Part shown: piece by piece, positions 26,005 through 52,918 of the stretch
How positions within the stretch are numbered: position 1 is the stretch's first letter
Layout: each line of letters starts with the position of its first letter
Assembly: GCA_030684835.1 (NCBI GenBank)
Contig: JAUXWZ010000196.1
Location: forward strand, 1 to 64,000
Direction: 5' to 3'
DNA from: Beijerinckiaceae bacterium
GTDB lineage: Bacteria; Pseudomonadota; Alphaproteobacteria; Rhizobiales; Beijerinckiaceae
DNA: 64,000 nucleotides
Translations under genes and position numbers: made by a program
The notes under the pieces: model-generated
Databases searched by the model: none
Told to the model about the DNA's origin: nothing
The model's input: only the letters and a program-made list of their open reading frames with translations

Positions 26005-28095
26005 TTAACGCGGCGGGCGTGAGCCGCCCGGCCGTCCGCCCGGCTTTCCGCCAGAACGACCACCCGGCTTTCCGCCGCCCGAACGACCTGATCCGCCCGA
26101 ACGACCTGCGCCACCCACAGGACCTGCGCCACCCCCGGGCCCGCCGGCGCCCGGCCCCTTGCCGCCTGGCTTGGAGCCAAAGCTTTTCGCGCCGAAGCTC
26201 TTACCCGGGCGCCCCTCGCCACGACCCTCGGTACGCGGCGGGCGATCACCGAAATCCTTGCGCGGCGGACGATCTCCGAAGTCCTTCCGGGGAGGACGGT
26301 CGCCGAAGTCCTTGCGGGGTGGGCGATCACCGAAATCACGACGCGCAGGACGGTCGCCACCTTCCGAACGCGCCGGACGGTCGCCGAAGTCCTTGCGCGG
26401 CGGGCGATCACCGAAGTCCTTGCGGGGAGGACGATCTCCGAAGTCACGACGTGCAGGACGGTCGCCACCCCCGGCACGCGCCGGACGCTCGCCAAAATCC
26501 TTACGCGGCGGGCGATCACCGAAGTCCTTGCGGGCAGGACGATCTCCGAAGTCACGACGCGCAGGACGGTCGCCACCCCCGGCACGCGCCGGACGGTCGC
26601 CAAAATCCTTGCGCGCCGGACGCTCGCCAAAATCCTTGCGCGGCGGGCGATCTCCGAAATCCTTCCGGGGAGGACGATCCCCTGCGCCGGGACGCTCGGT
26701 GCGCTCAAAGCGGCGGCCACCCTCCGGCCGCTCGCGTCGATCCGTCGCGTCGTTGCGCGGCGCCCAGGGGCGTCCGCCGCCTTCAGCGCGCGGGCCACGC
26801 GAATCGGGACGCGCGCCACTGCCCGCCTCCGCCTTTCGCCAATTACCGCGCCCCTCAGCCGCCGGCCCGGACACGGACCTGTCTTTGTCGTTACGGCGCA
26901 TTGATCTTTCGCCGCCGTCACGCTCCTGCGCAAAACGCCTTGCGTTTCGTCCGCCCGATCTGCCCTCGTCGCGCGCGCCAGTCATGACGCGCTCAACCGG
27001 CACTGTGCGCCCGCGGCGATCCGCCGTCTCGCTGCGCTCGATCTTGCGGCGTCCCTCGCCTGCCCCGGCTTCAGCTTTCTCGGAGCGCATCAGCGACACA
27101 TGCTTGCGATTGCGCGGGATGAGATCGCGCGCGGACTTTGGCCGCTGCTCGGGCTCCTCGCGCGGGGCGCCCCGGGCGGGTCCGCGCTGCGGACGCTCTC
27201 CGCCGCGCGCGCCGCGTTCACCACGCTCGCTGCGTTCACGCGGGGCCGGACGCTCTTCGTTGGGATGGCGGCGCGCGATCTTTTCGCGATCCTTGGTGTC
27301 GAGGACCGGCGCCTCGAAATCGACGCCAGCTTCCGCCGCAAGCACTTCGCCAAGTTGATCCTTGAGAATGCGCGTCTTGACCTCGTCGACAGCGCCCTCT
27401 TCCAGTTCGCCCAACTGGAACGGGCCGTAGGACACGCGAATGAGGCGGTTTACGGAAAGCCCGAGATGCTCCAGAACGCGCTTGATCTCGCGGTTCTTCC
27501 CCTCGCGCAGCCCCATGGTGAGCCACACGTTGGCGCCCTGCACACGGTCGACCTTCGCCTCGATGCCGCGATATTCAATGCCCTCGATGACGACGCCCGA
27601 AGCAAGCGCATCCAGTTGGGCCTGATTAACATCGCCATGAGCGCGCACACGATAGCGGCGCAGCCAGCCCGTTGAAGGCAATTCGAGCACGCGGGCCAAG
27701 CCCCCGTCGTTGGTGAGAAGCAGCAGACCTTCGGTGTTGATGTCGAGGCGTCCGATGGTGACGAGCCTTGGCAATCCGTCGGGCAGGACGTCAAAAATTG
27801 TGTTGCGCCCTTCCGGGTCGTGATCGGTCGTCACGGTGCCGCGGGGCTTGTGAAACATGAACAATCGCGTGCGCTCGCGCCCGGCGATCGGGCGATTGTC
27901 GACGTTGATCTGGTCTTGCTCGGTTACGTTGAAGGCGGGGCTGTCCAGAACGCGCCCGTTCACGCTCACGCGGCCGTCGGTTATCCAACGCTCCGCATCG
28001 CGGCGGGAGCAGAGTCCAGCGCGGGCCATCACCTTGGCGATGCGCTCGCCGTCCGGCGTTTCACCCGGCTTGTCGTTTTCACTTCTGTCGGTCAT
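26005..28095 (-). CDS. rluB: RsuA/RluB-type pseudouridine synthase with long repetitive tail
   Basis: Residues 17-65 form an S4 domain (RIAKVMARAGLCSRRDAERW) and 70-250 the catalytic domain, with the active-site aspartate in GRLDINTEGLLLLTNDG and GLREGKNREIKRV. The fold modifies a uridine in 23S or 16S rRNA; RluB is the likely target type. The remaining 440 or so residues are low-complexity: Arg, Gly, Asp and Pro rich, with 17 nonapeptide units of the form DRPPRKDFG and a Gly-rich end. The total of 696 residues is more than twice that of the E. coli enzyme. The start at 28095 follows AGGAC. Confidence 0.9.
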   Translation of the reverse strand: MTDRSENDKPGETPDGERIAKVMARAGLCSRRDAERWITDGRVSVNGRVLDSPAFNVTEQDQINVDNRPIAGRERTRLFMFHKPRGTVTTDHDPEGRNTIFDVLPDGLPRLVTIGRLDINTEGLLLLTNDGGLARVLELPSTGWLRRYRVRAHGDVNQAQLDALASGVVIEGIEYRGIEAKVDRVQGANVWLTMGLREGKNREIKRVLEHLGLSVNRLIRVSYGPFQLGELEEGAVDEVKTRILKDQLGEVLAAEAGVDFEAPVLDTKDREKIARRHPNEERPAPRERSERGERGARGGERPQRGPARGAPREEPEQRPKSARDLIPRNRKHVSLMRSEKAEAGAGEGRRKIERSETADRRGRTVPVERVMTGARDEGRSGGRNARRFAQERDGGERSMRRNDKDRSVSGPAAEGRGNWRKAEAGSGARPDSRGPRAEGGGRPWAPRNDATDRRERPEGGRRFERTERPGAGDRPPRKDFGDRPPRKDFGERPARKDFGDRPARAGGGDRPARRDFGDRPARKDFGDRPPRKDFGERPARAGGGDRPARRDFGDRPPRKDFGDRPPRKDFGDRPARSEGGDRPARRDFGDRPPRKDFGDRPPRKDFGDRPPRKDFGDRPPRTEGRGEGRPGKSFGAKSFGSKPGGKGPGAGGPGGGAGPVGGAGRSGGSGRSGGGKPGGRSGGKPGGRPGGSRPPR
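26221..26679 (-). repeat. 17 tandem 27-bp units encoding DRPxRxxxG
   Basis: Seventeen in-frame copies of a 27-bp unit. Most read D/E-RP-P/A-R-K/R-DFG; units 4, 8, 12 and 17 carry AGGG, SEGG or TEGR at the end, giving a higher-order rhythm of four to five units. No indel breaks the frame. Confidence 0.9.
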
Positions 28096-28174
28096 GGCGT
28101 CCTGATAGCAGAGTGTCCGGCGCAGGTCGAACGACCTGCCGCTGTTTTTGGCCATATTTTAGAGGTTTTTGGGC

Positions 28175-28651
28175 GTGCCCTCACCGCTAGACACCCTCGC
28201 AAGCGACGATCCGATGGCGCGGGCGTTCGCCGAGGCACGCGCGGCGGCGGTGCGCGGCGAGGTCCCGGTGGGCGCGGCAATCGCGAAATACGGCCGCGTG
28301 ATCGCATCAGCCGGCAACCGCACGCTTCAGGACCGCGACCCCACAGCCCACGCGGAAATGTTGGCGTTGCGCGCGGCGGCGCAGGCCATCGGCTCGGAGC
28401 GGCTGATCGACTGCGATCTTTACGTGACGCTGGAGCCCTGCGCGATGTGCGCAGGCGCCATTTCCTTCGCTCGCATCCGCAGGCTGTATTTTGCGGCGGA
28501 CGATCCCAAGGGCGGCGCGGTGGAGCATGGCCCACGCTTCTTCGCGCAGGCCACATGTCACCACGCGCCCGAAGTTTACGGCGGCATCCGGGAAACCGAA
28601 GCCGCCGATTTATTGCGCGCGTTCTTCAAGGATAAGCGGGCGCCTAAGTAA
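28175..28651 (+). CDS. tadA: tRNA adenosine(34) deaminase
   Basis: Converts A34 to inosine in tRNA-Arg(ACG). The 158-residue product has the zinc motifs HAEMLALR (His and catalytic Glu) and PCAMCAGA (two Cys), and GEVPVGAAI. A GTG at 28175 fits AGAGG at 28161-28165 better than the TTG at 28169. It is divergent from the pseudouridine synthase and overlaps the DUF1328 gene by eight bases at the 3' end. Confidence 0.92.
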   Translation: MPSPLDTLASDDPMARAFAEARAAAVRGEVPVGAAIAKYGRVIASAGNRTLQDRDPTAHAEMLALRAAAQAIGSERLIDCDLYVTLEPCAMCAGAISFARIRRLYFAADDPKGGAVEHGPRFFAQATCHHAPEVYGGIRETEAADLLRAFFKDKRAPK

Positions 28652-28817
28652 TTTTTCGGTACGCAACAAAACCGAGAACCGCGAACGCGACAGCAATGAT
28701 GAGCGCGATCCAGAATAGAATCATCGCGATGTCGATAAAGGCTCCGGCAAGTCCACCAAAGCCGAGAACTGCGAGCACAAGCGCGACGATCGCGAAAATA
28801 GCAGCCCATTTTAGCAT
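28644..28817 (-). CDS. DUF1328 (UPF0391) small membrane protein
   Basis: A 57-residue protein starting MLKWAAIFAIVALVLAVLGF, with two hydrophobic helices separated by GGLAGAFIDIA and ending YRKIT. This is the DUF1328 pattern, often stress-induced in alphaproteobacteria, function unknown. AAGGAG lies eight bases before the ATG. It overlaps the end of tadA on the opposite strand. Confidence 0.85.
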   Translation of the reverse strand: MLKWAAIFAIVALVLAVLGFGGLAGAFIDIAMILFWIALIIAVAFAVLGFVAYRKIT

Positions 28818-29251
28818 CGCCTGATCTCCTTTCGCGTAGTTTGTTTATAGATATTTCTACCAAATGAACGTGCAAAGACAAGCTCAATTCTGCGCTTCTA
28901 AACACGTCAGCAACACGTGAACCAGAGCATCGCAGCAAGCAGTATATGCACAATGATTTGGCAACGTGGCTCATCACAACTTCCTCCTGAAATTTTGTAC
29001 TCTTTCGCACGTTGGGTCAAAGTTCTGTTTAAGCAGGAATGTCTTAGTATAATTTTTATTATAGGCTCAGTCATTTCGACTGATGAACCTGCATGACTTG
29101 GCAACAAGTCACTGGAACTATTCATACGGAGAGGTGTTGATCGGCAAGCCCGTTGAGACGGAGCACTCTCCGTCGCGGGCGAACTGCTGCCGAACAGCCC
29201 CGTCAAGGATTGTGGAGCGGCTATCCCAAGAAATCCAAGCTGGAGTTAATT
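28818..29251. other. intergenic region with an EcfG-like promoter
   Basis: 434 bases with no certain gene, AT-richer than the surroundings. It holds the divergent leaders of the DUF1328 gene and of the secreted repeat protein. A strong AGGAGG site faces an ATG at 28974 on the minus strand, but the frame runs into the DUF1328 gene and is not accepted as a gene. Confidence 0.6.
29114..29138 (+). promoter_or_regulatory. EcfG-type general-stress promoter candidate
   Basis: GGAAC at 29114-29118, 16 bases, then TGTT at 29135-29138. The alphaproteobacterial general-stress consensus is GGAAC-N16/17-CGTT. It lies about 115 bases before the start at 29252. Confidence 0.5.
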
Positions 29252-30046
29252 ATGAAACCGACTACTTATTTGTCTGTCTCGGCCATCGTACTTGGCATGC
29301 TGGTAGCAGGACCGGCATCGGCTCAGACGGGCGCTCCCGCAACCGGCGCTCCGGCCCAGAGCAGGTCTGTGGATGCCGGCAAAATCAAGGATCGGCTCGG
29401 CGAGATCAACGTAGAAAACCGGAAGGAATTCAGGGGCGAACTCGTTCGCGCCCAAAACCCGGAAGGACACACGGTTCTCTTCATCATCGGGCCCGAAAAT
29501 TTCGAGGGTGACGAGTCGCCGAGCGGCTTCAGCCAAGATAAGGTGCGCGGGCAATTGACCCAGGCCGCTTTCACGAACATTGAGTTCATTGACGGCACGA
29601 CCGCAGTGCGGGGCGAACTCGACGATAAGGCCATACTCGCGCTTTCCGCGGAGCAGGGCTGGCTCGGAACCGGTGGGCAAGCGCAGAGCAGCAAGCCTGA
29701 AATAGATCGGCTCAAGGAGCACCTTGACAAGATTGGCATGAGCGACACTTCGCAACTCAATGGCAAAGTCGTTCAGGCCCGCAGCTCGACCGGCCAGCCT
29801 TTGCTGGTGCTGGTCGGACCGGAAGACTTCGACGGCGACGACTCTGTTTCTCTGTCCGCCTCGGACCTGAGCGGAATGCAGCAGAAAGGGTTCCGCGAAG
29901 CGAAGACGGTCGAGAATATCTCCATGGTTCGCGGCAAGCTGGACGATCTCCACGTGATCGCGCTGTCTGGATCGGGGCTTCAAAGCGACATGGCGACGGG
30001 CACCGTGCCGGGTGCAGGTAGCAGTCCAGGCATGGGCGTACGCTAA
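29252..30046 (+). CDS. secreted protein with two internal repeats, unknown function
   Basis: A 264-residue protein with a Sec signal (cut after ASA near residue 25) and two related units of about 85 residues. Each begins with a short amphipathic helix, then FRGELVRAQN / LNGKVVQARS, VLFIIGPENFEGD / LLVLVGPEDFDGD, and ends VRGELDDKAILALS / VRGKLDDLHVIALS. I do not recognise the family; the paired beta-rich units suggest a small barrel-like domain. GGAG lies six bases before the ATG. An EcfG-like promoter upstream points to a stress role. Confidence 0.8.
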   Translation: MKPTTYLSVSAIVLGMLVAGPASAQTGAPATGAPAQSRSVDAGKIKDRLGEINVENRKEFRGELVRAQNPEGHTVLFIIGPENFEGDESPSGFSQDKVRGQLTQAAFTNIEFIDGTTAVRGELDDKAILALSAEQGWLGTGGQAQSSKPEIDRLKEHLDKIGMSDTSQLNGKVVQARSSTGQPLLVLVGPEDFDGDDSVSLSASDLSGMQQKGFREAKTVENISMVRGKLDDLHVIALSGSGLQSDMATGTVPGAGSSPGMGVR

Positions 30047-30076
30047 AGATCCAGCACGACACATAAAGCCAGAAGG

Positions 30077-30100
30077 GCCCGGCTCGTTAGCGAGCCGGGC
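30077..30100 (+). terminator. rho-independent terminator
   Basis: Perfect 10-bp stem GCCCGGCTCG/CGAGCCGGGC with TTAG loop, followed by TAGTTTGTTG. It separates the secreted repeat protein from the convergent bufferin operon. Confidence 0.8.
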
Positions 30101-30126
30101 TAGTTTGTTGCTGCACCATAATGTAA

Positions 30127-30654
30127 TTAGGCGCGCCTATGAATCAGATAATCAAGCGAGGCGCGACCGGCGCCTTCCCTCATCAGATAGAGGAGACATA
30201 CTGCCCACACACCATGCAGCGCATAGGCGCCCGGATAAACAAAGATCTGGATGACCAATGTCATTATCAGCAATGCGAAGGCGGATAACCGCGTCGCGAG
30301 ACCCAGTAGGATTAAAACCGGAAAGACGTGTTCGGCAACGGTAGCGGCGAAAGCCGCAAGCTCCGGCGGAAGTATCGGCAGTCGATACTCCTCCTTGAAT
30401 AGGTCAATCGTCGCTTCGGCAAAGCGAGGAACGCCCACGCTGAAACGCCCGTCAATAATGTCTATGGAGAAGTTATCGACCTTCGTTTGTCCAGACTTCC
30501 AGAACACTGCGGCGATGGAGAATCTGGCAAGCGCCGCCAGTAGATCTTGAGGGATGTGTGCGAAGACGCGATCAAGCAGGCCAAGGGCGCGCATAAATGG
30601 CCATTGAGTCTCACGGGACGTGGCGGCGCCTCCTGCATTTTCTAAAGCGCTCAT
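30127..30654 (-). CDS. bufD: DoxX family membrane protein, bufferin operon (BufD type)
   Basis: A 175-residue DoxX protein with four hydrophobic helices. LLDRVFAHIPQDLLAALARFSIAAVFWKSGQTK is the N-terminal part that DoxX proteins share (split here as LLAALARFSIAAVFW and KSGQTKV). It is the last gene of the bufABCD operon, starting two bases after bufC. DoxX proteins accompany bufferin loci and may serve quinone or redox chemistry at the membrane; the exact role is not known. Confidence 0.85.
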   Translation of the reverse strand: MSALENAGGAATSRETQWPFMRALGLLDRVFAHIPQDLLAALARFSIAAVFWKSGQTKVDNFSIDIIDGRFSVGVPRFAEATIDLFKEEYRLPILPPELAAFAATVAEHVFPVLILLGLATRLSAFALLIMTLVIQIFVYPGAYALHGVWAVCLLYLMREGAGRASLDYLIHRRA

Positions 30655-30656
30655 TG

Positions 30657-31418
30657 TTAATCTCCATCATCGTACGTGAATAAGCAGGCGGCGCCGGTTG
30701 AAATCAGAACGTTTAAAACCTGAGCCAGGTTAAACTCTGACGACGACAAGCATGATTGCGCCGCAGCCTCTGCAAGCACGCCGCCCCGTGCGAGGCTTTC
30801 CAGTAATTCCGCGCCGCCGGGCGGCAGCAGACTGGTTTCAACGTGCAAGTTCGGACGCGTAACAAGCGCATCTTCCGCCGTAAATGGATCGATATTTTCA
30901 ACGGACTGCGCGCCTTGGTGTGCGCCCCACACGGAGACAATGGCGAAGTTTGAACGCACGATACGTGCCGCCGGATGCAGAGTTATACGCAAATTTGCAA
31001 GCCGCTCCGGATCAAGCGCGGCGAAATCCGCGCTCAGAAGCGGTAAGTAATCCTGCGCATGATATGCGCTCACGCGCGCAGCCTCGAGACGGGCGACGTC
31101 AGCCAGATATGGCGTACATGAGGCGGGCTGAAAGCAATCTATAAAATTGCAAAAATCTCTGCCATATAGGTGCATTATGGGCGAGGACGGCTTGTTCGAA
31201 GCTACATAAATGCGCGCCATGGCGCGAAAGAAATCGTCCCCAACAATTTGCCGGCAGACCGGATAATTTGTGCAGAGGGCTTCGACCAGCGACACTGCGA
31301 CGTTGTTACGATAAACGTTGAAACGCTGCAATGAAATGAAATCATTCGACGCAATCAAGCCCTTTGGCGTCGCGTCGGATTGGCTGATGCCGTTTGCGAA
31401 GGCGGCGAAATCCATCAT
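30657..31418 (-). CDS. bufC: DUF2063 protein, bufferin maturation partner (BufC type)
   Basis: A 253-residue protein. The N-terminal half (about 1-90) is the DUF2063/HvfC domain with FNVYRNNVAVSLVEALCTNYPVC cut here into FNVYRNNVAVSLVEAL and NYPVC, then YGRDFCNFI. In MbnBC-like and bufferin systems this partner carries the leader-binding surface and works with the DUF692 enzyme on the precursor. Its ATG overlaps the bufB stop (ATGA) and it is followed by bufD, so translation is coupled. Confidence 0.88.
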   Translation of the reverse strand: MMDFAAFANGISQSDATPKGLIASNDFISLQRFNVYRNNVAVSLVEALCTNYPVCRQIVGDDFFRAMARIYVASNKPSSPIMHLYGRDFCNFIDCFQPASCTPYLADVARLEAARVSAYHAQDYLPLLSADFAALDPERLANLRITLHPAARIVRSNFAIVSVWGAHQGAQSVENIDPFTAEDALVTRPNLHVETSLLPPGGAELLESLARGGVLAEAAAQSCLSSSEFNLAQVLNVLISTGAACLFTYDDGD

Positions 31419-32302
31419 GCAGCGCTCCTTTCGTTGATCACATCAGCGAGGAGCGCATCAGCCTTAGCGGCCTCTTCGAAAAGCGTATGCGCATCCGGCA
31501 CATCATTATCCCATTCGATCAGAGTTGAAACAGGGCCGCCTATTTTTAGCGCATGCGCATAGAGGCGCCACACATCGGGTTGAACGGGGCGATCATGAGC
31601 GTCTATCAGAAGCGGCTCTCCCGGCACGTCATCGGTTGCATATCCGCCAAGATGAATCTCTCGAACGCGCTCCAGCGGAAATGCATTCAAATATACAAGC
31701 GGATCACGACTGTGATTGACGCACGAGACCTGCACGTTGTTGATGTCGAGCAACAGATCACACCCTGCCCGGTGCGTGACTTCGCGAATGAAGTCCACCT
31801 CATCCCATGTACTCGACTCGAACGCGACATAAGTGGACGGATTTTCGAGAAGGATTTGGCGACCAAGCCGATCCTGAACACGCCCGAGGTGGCTAACGAC
31901 ACGCGTCAGCGCAGCATTGTCATAGGCAAGGGGTAAGAGATCGTTGAAGAAAACGCCGTCATGCGTAGACCATGCAAGATGCTCCGACACCCAGCGGGGC
32001 TGGTAACGACGGACAAGTTTATGCAAGCGATCAAGGTGAATATCATCAAGGGCGAGTCCGCCAATTGAGAGCCCGACGCCATGCACGGAGAGGTCAAAGC
32101 GTTCACGAAGCAAGGTCAATTGGCGGTGCGGCATGCCGCCCGCGCCCATATAATTTTCGGCATGCACTTCAAGGAAGCGCACGCATCCGGCATTCTCCAT
32201 GATGTCTTGAAAGTGCTGTGGCTTAAAGCCCACGCCGGCCCACGTGCGCGCCGGCGTGCTTTGACAGACTGGGTTAGCCGTCGCGGGATTTTGCAATGTC
32301 AT
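31415..32302 (-). CDS. bufB: DUF692 multinuclear iron enzyme, bufferin maturation (BufB type)
   Basis: A 295-residue TIM barrel related to MbnB. Metal-ligand segments are visible in order: EVHAENYMG (residues 45-53), VSEHLAWS, ENPSTY, LLDINNVQVSCVNHSRD, EIHLGGY, LIDAHD and EWDND. Enzymes of this family use two or three irons and O2 to convert cysteines of a precursor into thiol-bearing heterocycles. The start MTLQNPATAN at 32302 has GGAGGGGAAAG before it; a longer frame reaches 32338. It lies 42 bases after bufA. Confidence 0.92.
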   Translation of the reverse strand: MTLQNPATANPVCQSTPARTWAGVGFKPQHFQDIMENAGCVRFLEVHAENYMGAGGMPHRQLTLLRERFDLSVHGVGLSIGGLALDDIHLDRLHKLVRRYQPRWVSEHLAWSTHDGVFFNDLLPLAYDNAALTRVVSHLGRVQDRLGRQILLENPSTYVAFESSTWDEVDFIREVTHRAGCDLLLDINNVQVSCVNHSRDPLVYLNAFPLERVREIHLGGYATDDVPGEPLLIDAHDRPVQPDVWRLYAHALKIGGPVSTLIEWDNDVPDAHTLFEEAAKADALLADVINERSAA

Positions 32303-32344
32303 TGAAACTTTCCCCTCCACGCGGCGGCCAGTTGTCAAGAGACG

Positions 32345-32641
32345 TCAGCTGCGCTTCGCGCGAAATTCCTTAAGCTGACCAAAGCCGCTAGTTGACGTCT
32401 TGGACGCCATTTTTTCGCACGTTCCCTTGGCGACGTATTTCCACGCGTTGCCTTGGTAATCTACAGTCGACGTGCCCGCACATGTGGTTCCCGCTCCTGC
32501 GGCGCAATCATTCTGGCCCTTCAGCGAAACGCCGAAGCAACGTTCGCGGCTCGAGTCTTGAGCGGACGCCGGCGCCGTTGATATTGCGAGGGCGCTGGTA
32601 AGAGACGCGGCGAGTGCAAGCGATAAAGTACGACGATCCAT
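32345..32641 (-). CDS. bufA: bufferin precursor peptide (DUF2282, BufA type)
   Basis: A 98-residue exported peptide. The signal sequence ends near ASAQ (residue 27-28). Four cysteines at 35, 46, 54 and 75 lie in [19 protein letters not shown] and KGTCEKM, separated by YQGNAWKYV: this is the bufferin signature, where cysteines are modified by BufB/BufC to copper-binding groups. The signal peptide probably doubles as leader. AGGAGG precedes the ATG. It is the first gene of the operon and has its own sigmaF-like promoter. Confidence 0.93.
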
Positions 32642-32684
32642 TTAATCCTCCTGGACAGCGCCATTCCGCGGGCTGCAAGGGAAG

Positions 32685-32710
32685 TACGGAGCGTTGCGTG
32701 GTTGTGTTAC
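32685..32710 (-). promoter_or_regulatory. sigmaF-type promoter of bufABCD
   Basis: On the minus strand GTAACA (32710-32705), 16 bases, CGTA (32688-32685), ending 43 bases before the bufA ATG. It matches the form I recall for Caulobacter sigmaF promoters (GTAACC-N16-CGAA) with one change in each box. Confidence 0.75.
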
Positions 32711-32774
32711 ATGGGACACGGTTTCGTGAACGTCGCTTGGTTGATCCGGCGCTAAAGTAAATTTGCAGCATCCG

Positions 32775-32800
32775 GTAACGAAATGACCAAGACCCGCGAA
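32775..32800 (+). promoter_or_regulatory. sigmaF-type autoregulatory promoter
   Basis: GTAACG (32775-32780), 16 bases, CGAA (32797-32800). The ATG at 32783 falls between the two boxes, so a transcript from here would start near 32807 and could only use the ATG at 32855. Confidence 0.7.
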
Positions 32801-32854
32801 AAGACTCTTGAACACACGCGCATCGAGGTACGCGAAGAGGATCAACTTGGCGAC

Positions 32855-33370
32855 ATGATGCGCTTGGCTCTTGCTGGAAATTCGGCCGTTTATGCTGACC
32901 TTCTCAAGGAGGTCGCCAAGCTTGCCCGAGGCTCCGCGCGGAGCATGCTGCGGCGACGCGGCCAGAGTGACGCCGATCTTGAAGATATCGTTCAGGAGGT
33001 TCTCCTCGCCGTTCATCTGAAGCGGGGCGCCTGGGATAAAGTTCGCCCATTTCGACCATGGCTTGGGGCGATCGTGCGGCACAAGCTCATCGACGCGATG
33101 CGGCGGCGAAGACTGGGCGATGTGTCTGTAGACGAGATTGCGGACATCCTGCCCGCGGAGACTACGGCGCCTTCCGACGCGCACGACGTGGAGCGCACTT
33201 TGGCATGTCTGCCGGAACGGCCGCGCGCCATTGTGCGCGCCATCGCGATTGAGGGGCGAAGCGCTGCGCAGGTGGGCGCTGATTTTGGCATGAACGAAGG
33301 CGCAGTGCGCGTTGCGCTGCATCGCGCGCTGAAGGACCTCGCCGCCAGATTTAGAGGGCGGACGGAATGA
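32855..33370 (+). CDS. sigF: ECF sigma factor, SigF type
   Basis: A 171-residue two-domain sigma factor. Region 2 lies at about 20-85 (LEDIVQEVLLAVHLKRGAWD, PFRPWLGAIVRHKLIDAMRR) and region 4 at 115-165 (RPRAIVRAIAIEGRSAAQVG, then GMNEGAVRVALHRALKDL). The open frame begins at 32783, but that ATG has no ribosome-binding site and lies inside a promoter-like motif, so I prefer 32855, with AGAGG 14 bases upstream. It is coupled to the anti-sigma gene by ATGA and divergent from bufA. In Caulobacter the same pair controls the bufferin operon under heavy-metal stress. Confidence 0.88.
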   Translation: MMRLALAGNSAVYADLLKEVAKLARGSARSMLRRRGQSDADLEDIVQEVLLAVHLKRGAWDKVRPFRPWLGAIVRHKLIDAMRRRRLGDVSVDEIADILPAETTAPSDAHDVERTLACLPERPRAIVRAIAIEGRSAAQVGADFGMNEGAVRVALHRALKDLAARFRGRTE

Positions 33371-34002
33371 AAACAGACGATCTTATTCGCGCGTTGGCCG
33401 AAGATGCGCCATCCGATACCGGCCCGGCGCGCAATCGGGCGCTGCTGCTGCTCGCCGCCTCGTCAATTATCGTGGCGATCGTCTTCGTGCTTTTGTTCAA
33501 TTTGCGCGCTGACCTTGCCGGTTCCGGGGCGTGGCCAACCTTACGCAAGCTCGCCGTCACGCTGCTGCTACTGGGGGCCGGCGCGCGGGGCGCCACCCTA
33601 TTGATGCAGCCAGACGCACGGCTGCGTGACGCGCTGATCTGGCTGGCGGCGCCTATTGCGGCAATACTGACCCTCATTGGCGTCGATGTGGCGCTGAACG
33701 GCAACGCGAATCTCGGCGCACGGGCGATGGGCGCAACAGCGCTGCAATGCCTGGCATCCGTAAGCCTTCTGTCGCTCGCGCCGCTTGCAGCGTTTCTCTA
33801 CGGGCTGCGGGAGGGGGCGACGACGCGTCCCGATATCGCTGGCGCGCTTGCGGGCGTCGCCGCTGGCGGAATTGCCGCGAGTCTCTATGCGCTGCACTGC
33901 ACCGACGACGGTCCGCTATTTGTGGGCGTTTGGTATGGGCTCGCCATCATGCTCGTTGGCGCAGCGGGCTGGTTTGCGGGACGCCGCATCCTGCAATGGT
34001 GA
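33367..34002 (+). CDS. nrsF: NrsF-type anti-sigma factor (DUF1109), membrane sensor
   Basis: A 211-residue protein with six hydrophobic helices after a short cytoplasmic lead that probably holds the sigma factor. Two cysteines, C128 and C178, are 50 residues apart; this equals the spacing of the essential pair C131 and C181 I recall for Caulobacter NrsF, which are thought to sense metals. It overlaps the sigma gene by four bases (ATGA). Release of sigmaF would switch on bufA, sigF and, by the promoter motif, msrB. Confidence 0.9.
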   Translation: MKTDDLIRALAEDAPSDTGPARNRALLLLAASSIIVAIVFVLLFNLRADLAGSGAWPTLRKLAVTLLLLGAGARGATLLMQPDARLRDALIWLAAPIAAILTLIGVDVALNGNANLGARAMGATALQCLASVSLLSLAPLAAFLYGLREGATTRPDIAGALAGVAAGGIAASLYALHCTDDGPLFVGVWYGLAIMLVGAAGWFAGRRILQW

Positions 34003-34006
34003 ACAC

Positions 34007-52824: not shown

Positions 52825-52918
52825 GGAGACGTGGCCGAGAGGCTGAAGGCGGCGGTTTGCTAAACCGTTATAGGGTTGTAAAGCCCTATCGAGGGTTCGA
52901 ATCCCTCCGTCTCCGCCA
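52825..52918 (+). tRNA. tRNA-Ser (anticodon GCU)
   Basis: Acceptor GGAGACG pairs with CGTCTCC, discriminator G and encoded CCA. The anticodon loop TTGCTAA gives GCT at 52859-52861, the long variable arm (TATAGGG/CCCTATC) marks the serine class, and GAGGG-TTCGAAT-CCCTC is the T arm. Reads AGC and AGU. No integrase or duplicate 3' end is seen nearby. Confidence 0.97.

Follow-up and report, generated by a model that had tools for sequence, protein, structure and literature searches.

On the minus strand of the window, by which we mean the whole 64,000-nucleotide stretch of DNA that was analysed, four intact genes lie at positions 30127-32641 in the order bufA, bufB, bufC and bufD, and across a shared intergenic region they face a plus-strand pair (32783-34002) that encodes an ECF sigma factor and an anti-sigma factor. 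The first-pass annotation had described the former as a complete bufferin operon, with these coordinates and in this order, and in that it was right; the regulator, which is divergent from bufA, was missing from its account.

The four genes of the operon

All on the minus strand, bufA (32345-32641) encodes a bufferin precursor of the Buf1 type with 98 amino acids, bufB (31415-32302) an MNIO (DUF692) maturase with 295, counted from an ATG, bufC (30657-31418) a DUF2063 partner protein with 253 and bufD (30127-30654) a DoxX-family membrane protein with 175. The longest possible reading frame of bufB would start at a TTG at 32338; the ATG is preceded by a purine-rich stretch. With the ATG as start, 42 bases separate bufA from bufB, so that the ATGA or near-zero spacing originally claimed throughout the operon holds for bufB and bufC, which overlap by the four bases of an ATGA, and for bufC and bufD, which are 2 bases apart, but not for bufA and bufB. 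No stop or frameshift interrupts any of the six genes (bufABCD, sigF and nrsF). Between the convergent bufD and the plus-strand gene at 29252, an 11-bp G+C-rich hairpin can be folded at 30076-30101, which is a possible terminator common to both.

The family assignments first made from the letters were borne out by the Pfam models for DUF2282 in BufA (PF10048, 86 bits against a cut-off of 22.4), for MbnB_TglH_ChrH in BufB (328 bits, cut-off 25) and for DUF2063 in BufC (PF09836, 80 bits, cut-off 27.2), and BufD matches the DoxX model (PF07681, 60 bits, cut-off 23.6). In relatives, A, C and D lie on the strand of the BufB gene in 86 of the 109 loci with a BufB match, a count that excludes three copies of the locus studied here and includes some loci that are cut by a contig end or come from one genome. 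Because of these domain scores and the same gene set in relatives, a chance match is excluded.

The BufA precursor holds four cysteines (Cys35, Cys46, Cys54 and Cys75) behind an N-terminus that, judged by eye, resembles a signal peptide, and its gene directly precedes that of the MNIO, as is typical of Buf1. When the 107 DUF2282-like ORFs of relatives, which come from 101 related loci, are aligned, Cys35, Cys46 and Cys54 are present in all of them and Cys75 in 106; the ORFs had been picked for their resemblance to the window's BufA, so that divergent precursors are under-represented. For Buf1, it is reported that the central cysteines are modified and that the first and the last form a disulfide (PMC12452194). 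Membership of Buf2 was rejected, namely since the NCBIfam BufA2 model gives 26.4 bits, below its cut-off of 60, and there are four cysteines rather than six or twelve. Separately, two bufA-like ORFs stand ahead of a single bufB in six of the related loci (L055, L069, L074, L076, L099 and L109); the lower-scoring of the two has an altered core in L074 and in L076.

The enzyme itself scores 356 bits on the NCBIfam equivalog model MNIO_BufB (NF050167), above the cut-off of 310, which places it in the BufB group. It further matches PDB entry 3BWW (E 2e-36), TglH (8hci, E 3.6e-14) and, more weakly than 3BWW, MbnB. Metal-site segments had been pointed out in BufB from the start, and the alignments to these three proteins do cover them. 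In particular, the main match to 3BWW spans the HG, H, EN, DxNN and H segments, and DxH and the final E are reached solely in a weak second stretch; with TglH, the latter two fall inside a single stretch, and DxH also aligns to MbnB. Matched by motif, residues in the DINN and DAHD segments correspond to N175, D242 and H244 of HvfB, and the other motif segments presumably carry iron ligands. The three HvfB residues are required for activity (PMC13419390).

BufC and BufD, as well as the anti-sigma factor NrsF, exceed the cut-offs of Pfam and stay under the narrow equivalog cut-offs of NCBI. Namely, BufC reaches 41 bits on the NCBIfam HvfC model (cut-off 142) and BufD 50 bits on HvfX (cut-off 80); BufC is 34-45% identical to 24 relatives (set A1) and has no match among PDB sequences at E 1. 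Could the locus then represent another class that pairs an MNIO with a DUF2063 protein, of the oxazolin/Hvf type or Buf2, and make a different peptide? The HvfB, HvfC and HvfX models do match its genes, and in published networks the enzymes of bufferin and oxazolin clusters are unseparated up to the threshold tried (PMC12452194). However, the precursor combines DUF2282 with its four cysteines and has no EGKCG repeats, and BufB, at 356 bits on the bufferin model, obtains 214.8 bits on the HvfB model NF003818, whose cut-off is 360; we regard a class of this kind as extremely improbable. Membership of the oxazolin (HvfABCX) group as such was rejected on the NF003818 score and on the lack of an EGKCG repeat in BufA. 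The DUF2063 partner follows the MNIO gene and DoxX comes after it, as is common in Buf1 clusters, and identification as a Buf1 bufferin operon is supported by this gene set together with the four cysteines and the family models. The presence of another bufferin set elsewhere in the genome was considered and rejected, as the search at E 0.001 of the 96%-complete assembly gave one MNIO and one DUF2282 match only.

The divergent regulator and its putative promoters

The product of sigF (32783-33370, plus strand) is an ECF sigma factor of the sigma-F type, with the Pfam domains Sigma70_r2 and r4_2 and a score of 208 bits on NF009165 (NCBIfam, cut-off 198). The anti-sigma factor encoded by nrsF (33367-34002, plus strand) matches Pfam's NrsF (PF06532) with 154 bits and the NCBIfam NrsF equivalog with 87.5, below the cut-off of 300. 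It has exactly two cysteines, Cys128 and Cys178, both of them kept in 21 of 21 relatives, and an NrsF-family anti-sigma factor with two conserved cysteines adjoining an ECF sigma gene is the arrangement of ECF16. In one related locus, from the BEIJ2 MAG (L040, 1-3153), sigF and nrsF stand upstream of bufABC on the same strand and are not divergent.

The shared intergenic region holds two putative sigma-F promoters, one facing each way: GTAACA-N16-CGTA at 32685-32710 (minus strand) ahead of bufABCD and GTAACG-N16-CGAA at 32775-32800 (plus strand) ahead of sigF-nrsF. Both fit GTAAC-N17-CGWA; compared with the promoter type GTAACC-N16-CGAA, the sigF motif is one base off and the bufA motif two. 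Among 20000 dinucleotide shuffles of 32642-32860 (219 bases), none had a match on both strands and 75 had any match, and the same script finds three further matches elsewhere in the 64-kb window. What is more, the motif is present upstream of bufA in 21 of 26 related loci with a neighbouring sigF, as opposed to 6 of the 75 in which no sigF was seen (Fisher p 5e-12), in a survey which took in 101 upstream regions and spacers of 15-17, with two regions shorter than 200 bases (L079 and L104), and in which short-flanked loci may conceal a sigF. It is missing in 5 of the 26 loci with sigF, and in the sigF regions of relatives it is present in 21 of 28 and missing in 7.

Since the putative sigF promoter overlaps the listed ATG of this gene, the listed start is probably wrong. 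The next in-frame ATGs are codons 25-26, and translation probably begins at this pair, which lies close to the start of the alignment with the relatives shown.

In Caulobacter, Sigma-F controls a DUF2282-DUF692-DUF2063-DoxX operon (PMC3511200), and the sigma and NrsF genes are listed in Buf1 clusters and not in Buf2 (PMC12452194). The locus is, in short, a genuine Buf1 operon, complete and of the ordinary kind, with the usual sigma-F/NrsF control, and the regulator genes should be annotated together with the bufferin operon.

Host lineage and the 5.4-kb block

The host had been suspected to belong to Hyphomicrobiales, and the comparison of RpoB (match in 21 of 28 genomes) does place it there, with identities of 83-84% to Ancylobacter, Rhodoplanes and Bradyrhizobium as against 72-73% to Shimia and Pseudotabrizicola; no 16S was found for this placement, by a search that also missed 5 of 14 control genomes. 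The further suggestion that this order would add a lineage to the pathway has to be given up. Namely, a counterpart in Sinorhizobium meliloti has been in print since 2018 and predates the term bufferin: the authors describe rpoE7-ecfR7 and the divergent SMb20530-SMb20527 as orthologous to Caulobacter SigF-NrsF and CC3254-CC3257 (PMC6180224). Moreover, among the best 80 of the 510 loci found, that is, the nearest 80 kept from named records, 53 belong to Hyphomicrobiales (18 named genera), 20 to Rhodobacterales and 2 to other orders, and 5 carry no order. Relatives of BufB also occur in 354 plasmid records, including 41 from Sinorhizobium and 39 from Rhizobium. The locus adds one example to a widespread copper-buffering pathway, whose chemistry, regulation and presence in Hyphomicrobiales were known already.

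Within the host genus, BufB is matched in 11 of 51 genomes, nine times at full length (the window included) and twice (G007 and G025) by a fragmentary or distant sequence; some S. meliloti strains are likewise reported to be without the locus (PMC6180224). Might the genes, intact as they are, be silent or unneeded in this host? Such patchiness is what one would cite in favour, but all six genes are free of stops and frameshifts and keep the enzyme motifs, the cysteines and both promoter motifs, and we consider this reading very improbable.

The operon and its regulator sit in a 5.4-kb block (28652-34006) between tadA and an alpha/beta hydrolase gene. This block is absent from a congener without BufB that is rated 100% complete (G001), where the flanks are collinear on both sides and the tadA-hydrolase gap measures about 300 bp instead of 5.4 kb. 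The content missing there comprises a DUF1328 gene, the 29252 gene, the buf operon and sigF-nrsF. Another congener (G095) is unusable as a witness of the empty site, its contig ending inside the hydrolase gene and its tadA not being found. The DUF1328-type gene (28644-28817, minus strand), which encodes a small membrane protein, lies at the edge of the missing block and overlaps tadA at the latter's 3' end. The plus-strand gene at 29252-30046 encodes an exported-looking protein, built of two halves that are similar by eye and without a Pfam or NCBIfam match; among the 51 genus genomes it is matched in this one only, and a 56% identical second copy lies on contig C7. Outside the block, an S4/pseudouridine-synthase protein (26005-28155, minus strand) bears a long tail at its C-terminus, made of repeated GDRPPRKDF-like units, and for the whole window Rfam at gathering thresholds returns a tRNA at 52825-52915 only.

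How did the block come to be where it is? The G+C content is 54-58% in the buf genes, 60% in the 29252 gene, 62-65% in sigF-nrsF and 63-68% in the flanking genes, so that the regulator is not distinct by composition. No convincing direct repeat flanks the block, and none of the 16 neighbourhood proteins scanned with Pfam is a recombinase or integrase. On a tree of 40 BufB proteins the genus label needs four changes, and a single clade for eight genus copies is rejected by the AU test (p-AU 0.0031), whereas the test does not reject a group made of the window's BufB and its four nearest congeners (p-AU 0.32), and the window's BufB is for this reason not proven foreign to all congeners. The AU test, which was run after the first tree had been seen, drew on 40 of 108 gathered rows. 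Of the nine full-length copies from the genus it took in all but one, the copy of G029 with its long branch, and truncated or fragmentary rows were left out of the BufB trees. The locus has the look of a block that came or went as a whole, and both gain by transfer and repeated, differential loss are possible. A tentative idea, to which we give somewhat less than even chances, is that sigma-F/NrsF and the bufferin operon, perhaps with the 29252-30046 protein, form one copper-stress cassette with its own regulation, which would pass as a unit from one alphaproteobacterium to another and settle in chromosomal gaps without an integrase of its own. With its patchy spread and a congener in which the site is vacant, the locus lends itself to testing whether bufferin operons are passed on as regulated units.

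Proposed function and related systems

We consider it very likely that this standard Buf1 operon, with its own sigma-F/NrsF switch, buffers periplasmic copper through a thiooxazole-bearing BufA, the heterocycle chemistry and the copper role being what we infer from characterised relatives. As in Caulobacter, the ECF sigma factor would be held by membrane-bound NrsF, whose two cysteines would be the target of a thiol-reactive metal or oxidant; once these have reacted, the sigma factor would be released and would transcribe its own operon as well as the divergent bufABCD from the two putative GTAAC-N17-CGWA promoters. By analogy with characterised Buf1, BufB, as an iron enzyme aided by BufC, would then convert Cys46 and Cys54 of BufA to 5-thiooxazoles before export, and Cys35 and Cys75 would form a disulfide. 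The exported BufA would chelate excess periplasmic copper.

It may be asked whether the peptide mainly answers another stress, such as chromate, cadmium, other metals or oxidants, with copper being secondary. Caulobacter Sigma-F has been described via its chromate and cadmium responses (PMC3511200), and some bufferins have been proposed to act in stress caused by other metals (PMC12452194). Against this stands the report that Caulobacter Buf1 chelates both Cu(I) and Cu(II) and improves growth in excess copper (PMC12452194), and we judge a mainly copper-independent role to be unlikely. What speaks against the proposed induction is that reporter fusions in S. meliloti did not respond to H2O2, cadmium or chromate, in a list of compounds from which copper is missing (PMC6180224).

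The locus of S. meliloti, a member of the same bacterial order, is alike in that ECF16 sigma and anti-sigma genes are divergent from four genes including DUF692 and DUF2063, with RpoE7-dependent promoters of the GTAACA type on both sides (PMC6180224). It is unlike ours in that the four genes are presented there as conserved hypotheticals and not named bufferin; where the locus is described, SMb20530 and SMb20527 bear no DUF2282 or DoxX label, and they are likened here by description, not by alignment (PMC6180224).

The sigF-nrsF genes of Caulobacter crescentus, together with CC3254-CC3257 (Buf1), share with our locus the DUF2282-DUF692-DUF2063-DoxX order, a sigma-F with an NrsF that has two conserved cysteines, and a promoter, there GTAACC-N16-CGAA (PMC3511200). 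The functional cysteines of Caulobacter NrsF are C131 and C181 (PMC3511200), to which Cys128 and Cys178 are near in number, a likeness drawn by numbering alone. Caulobacter differs from our host, for which a single match each to MNIO and DUF2282 was obtained, by having a further DUF2282-DUF692-DUF2063 set under sigma-F control, CC2907-CC2905 (PMC3511200).

Finally, oxazolin/Hvf and fontiphorin clusters resemble the locus in that an MNIO and a DUF2063 partner produce 5-thiooxazoles, often with DoxX, whereas their precursors carry repeated Lys-Cys or EGKCG motifs and not DUF2282. The common name captophorins has been proposed, in a survey of MNIO partners that counts DUF2282 precursors as well (PMC12668002).
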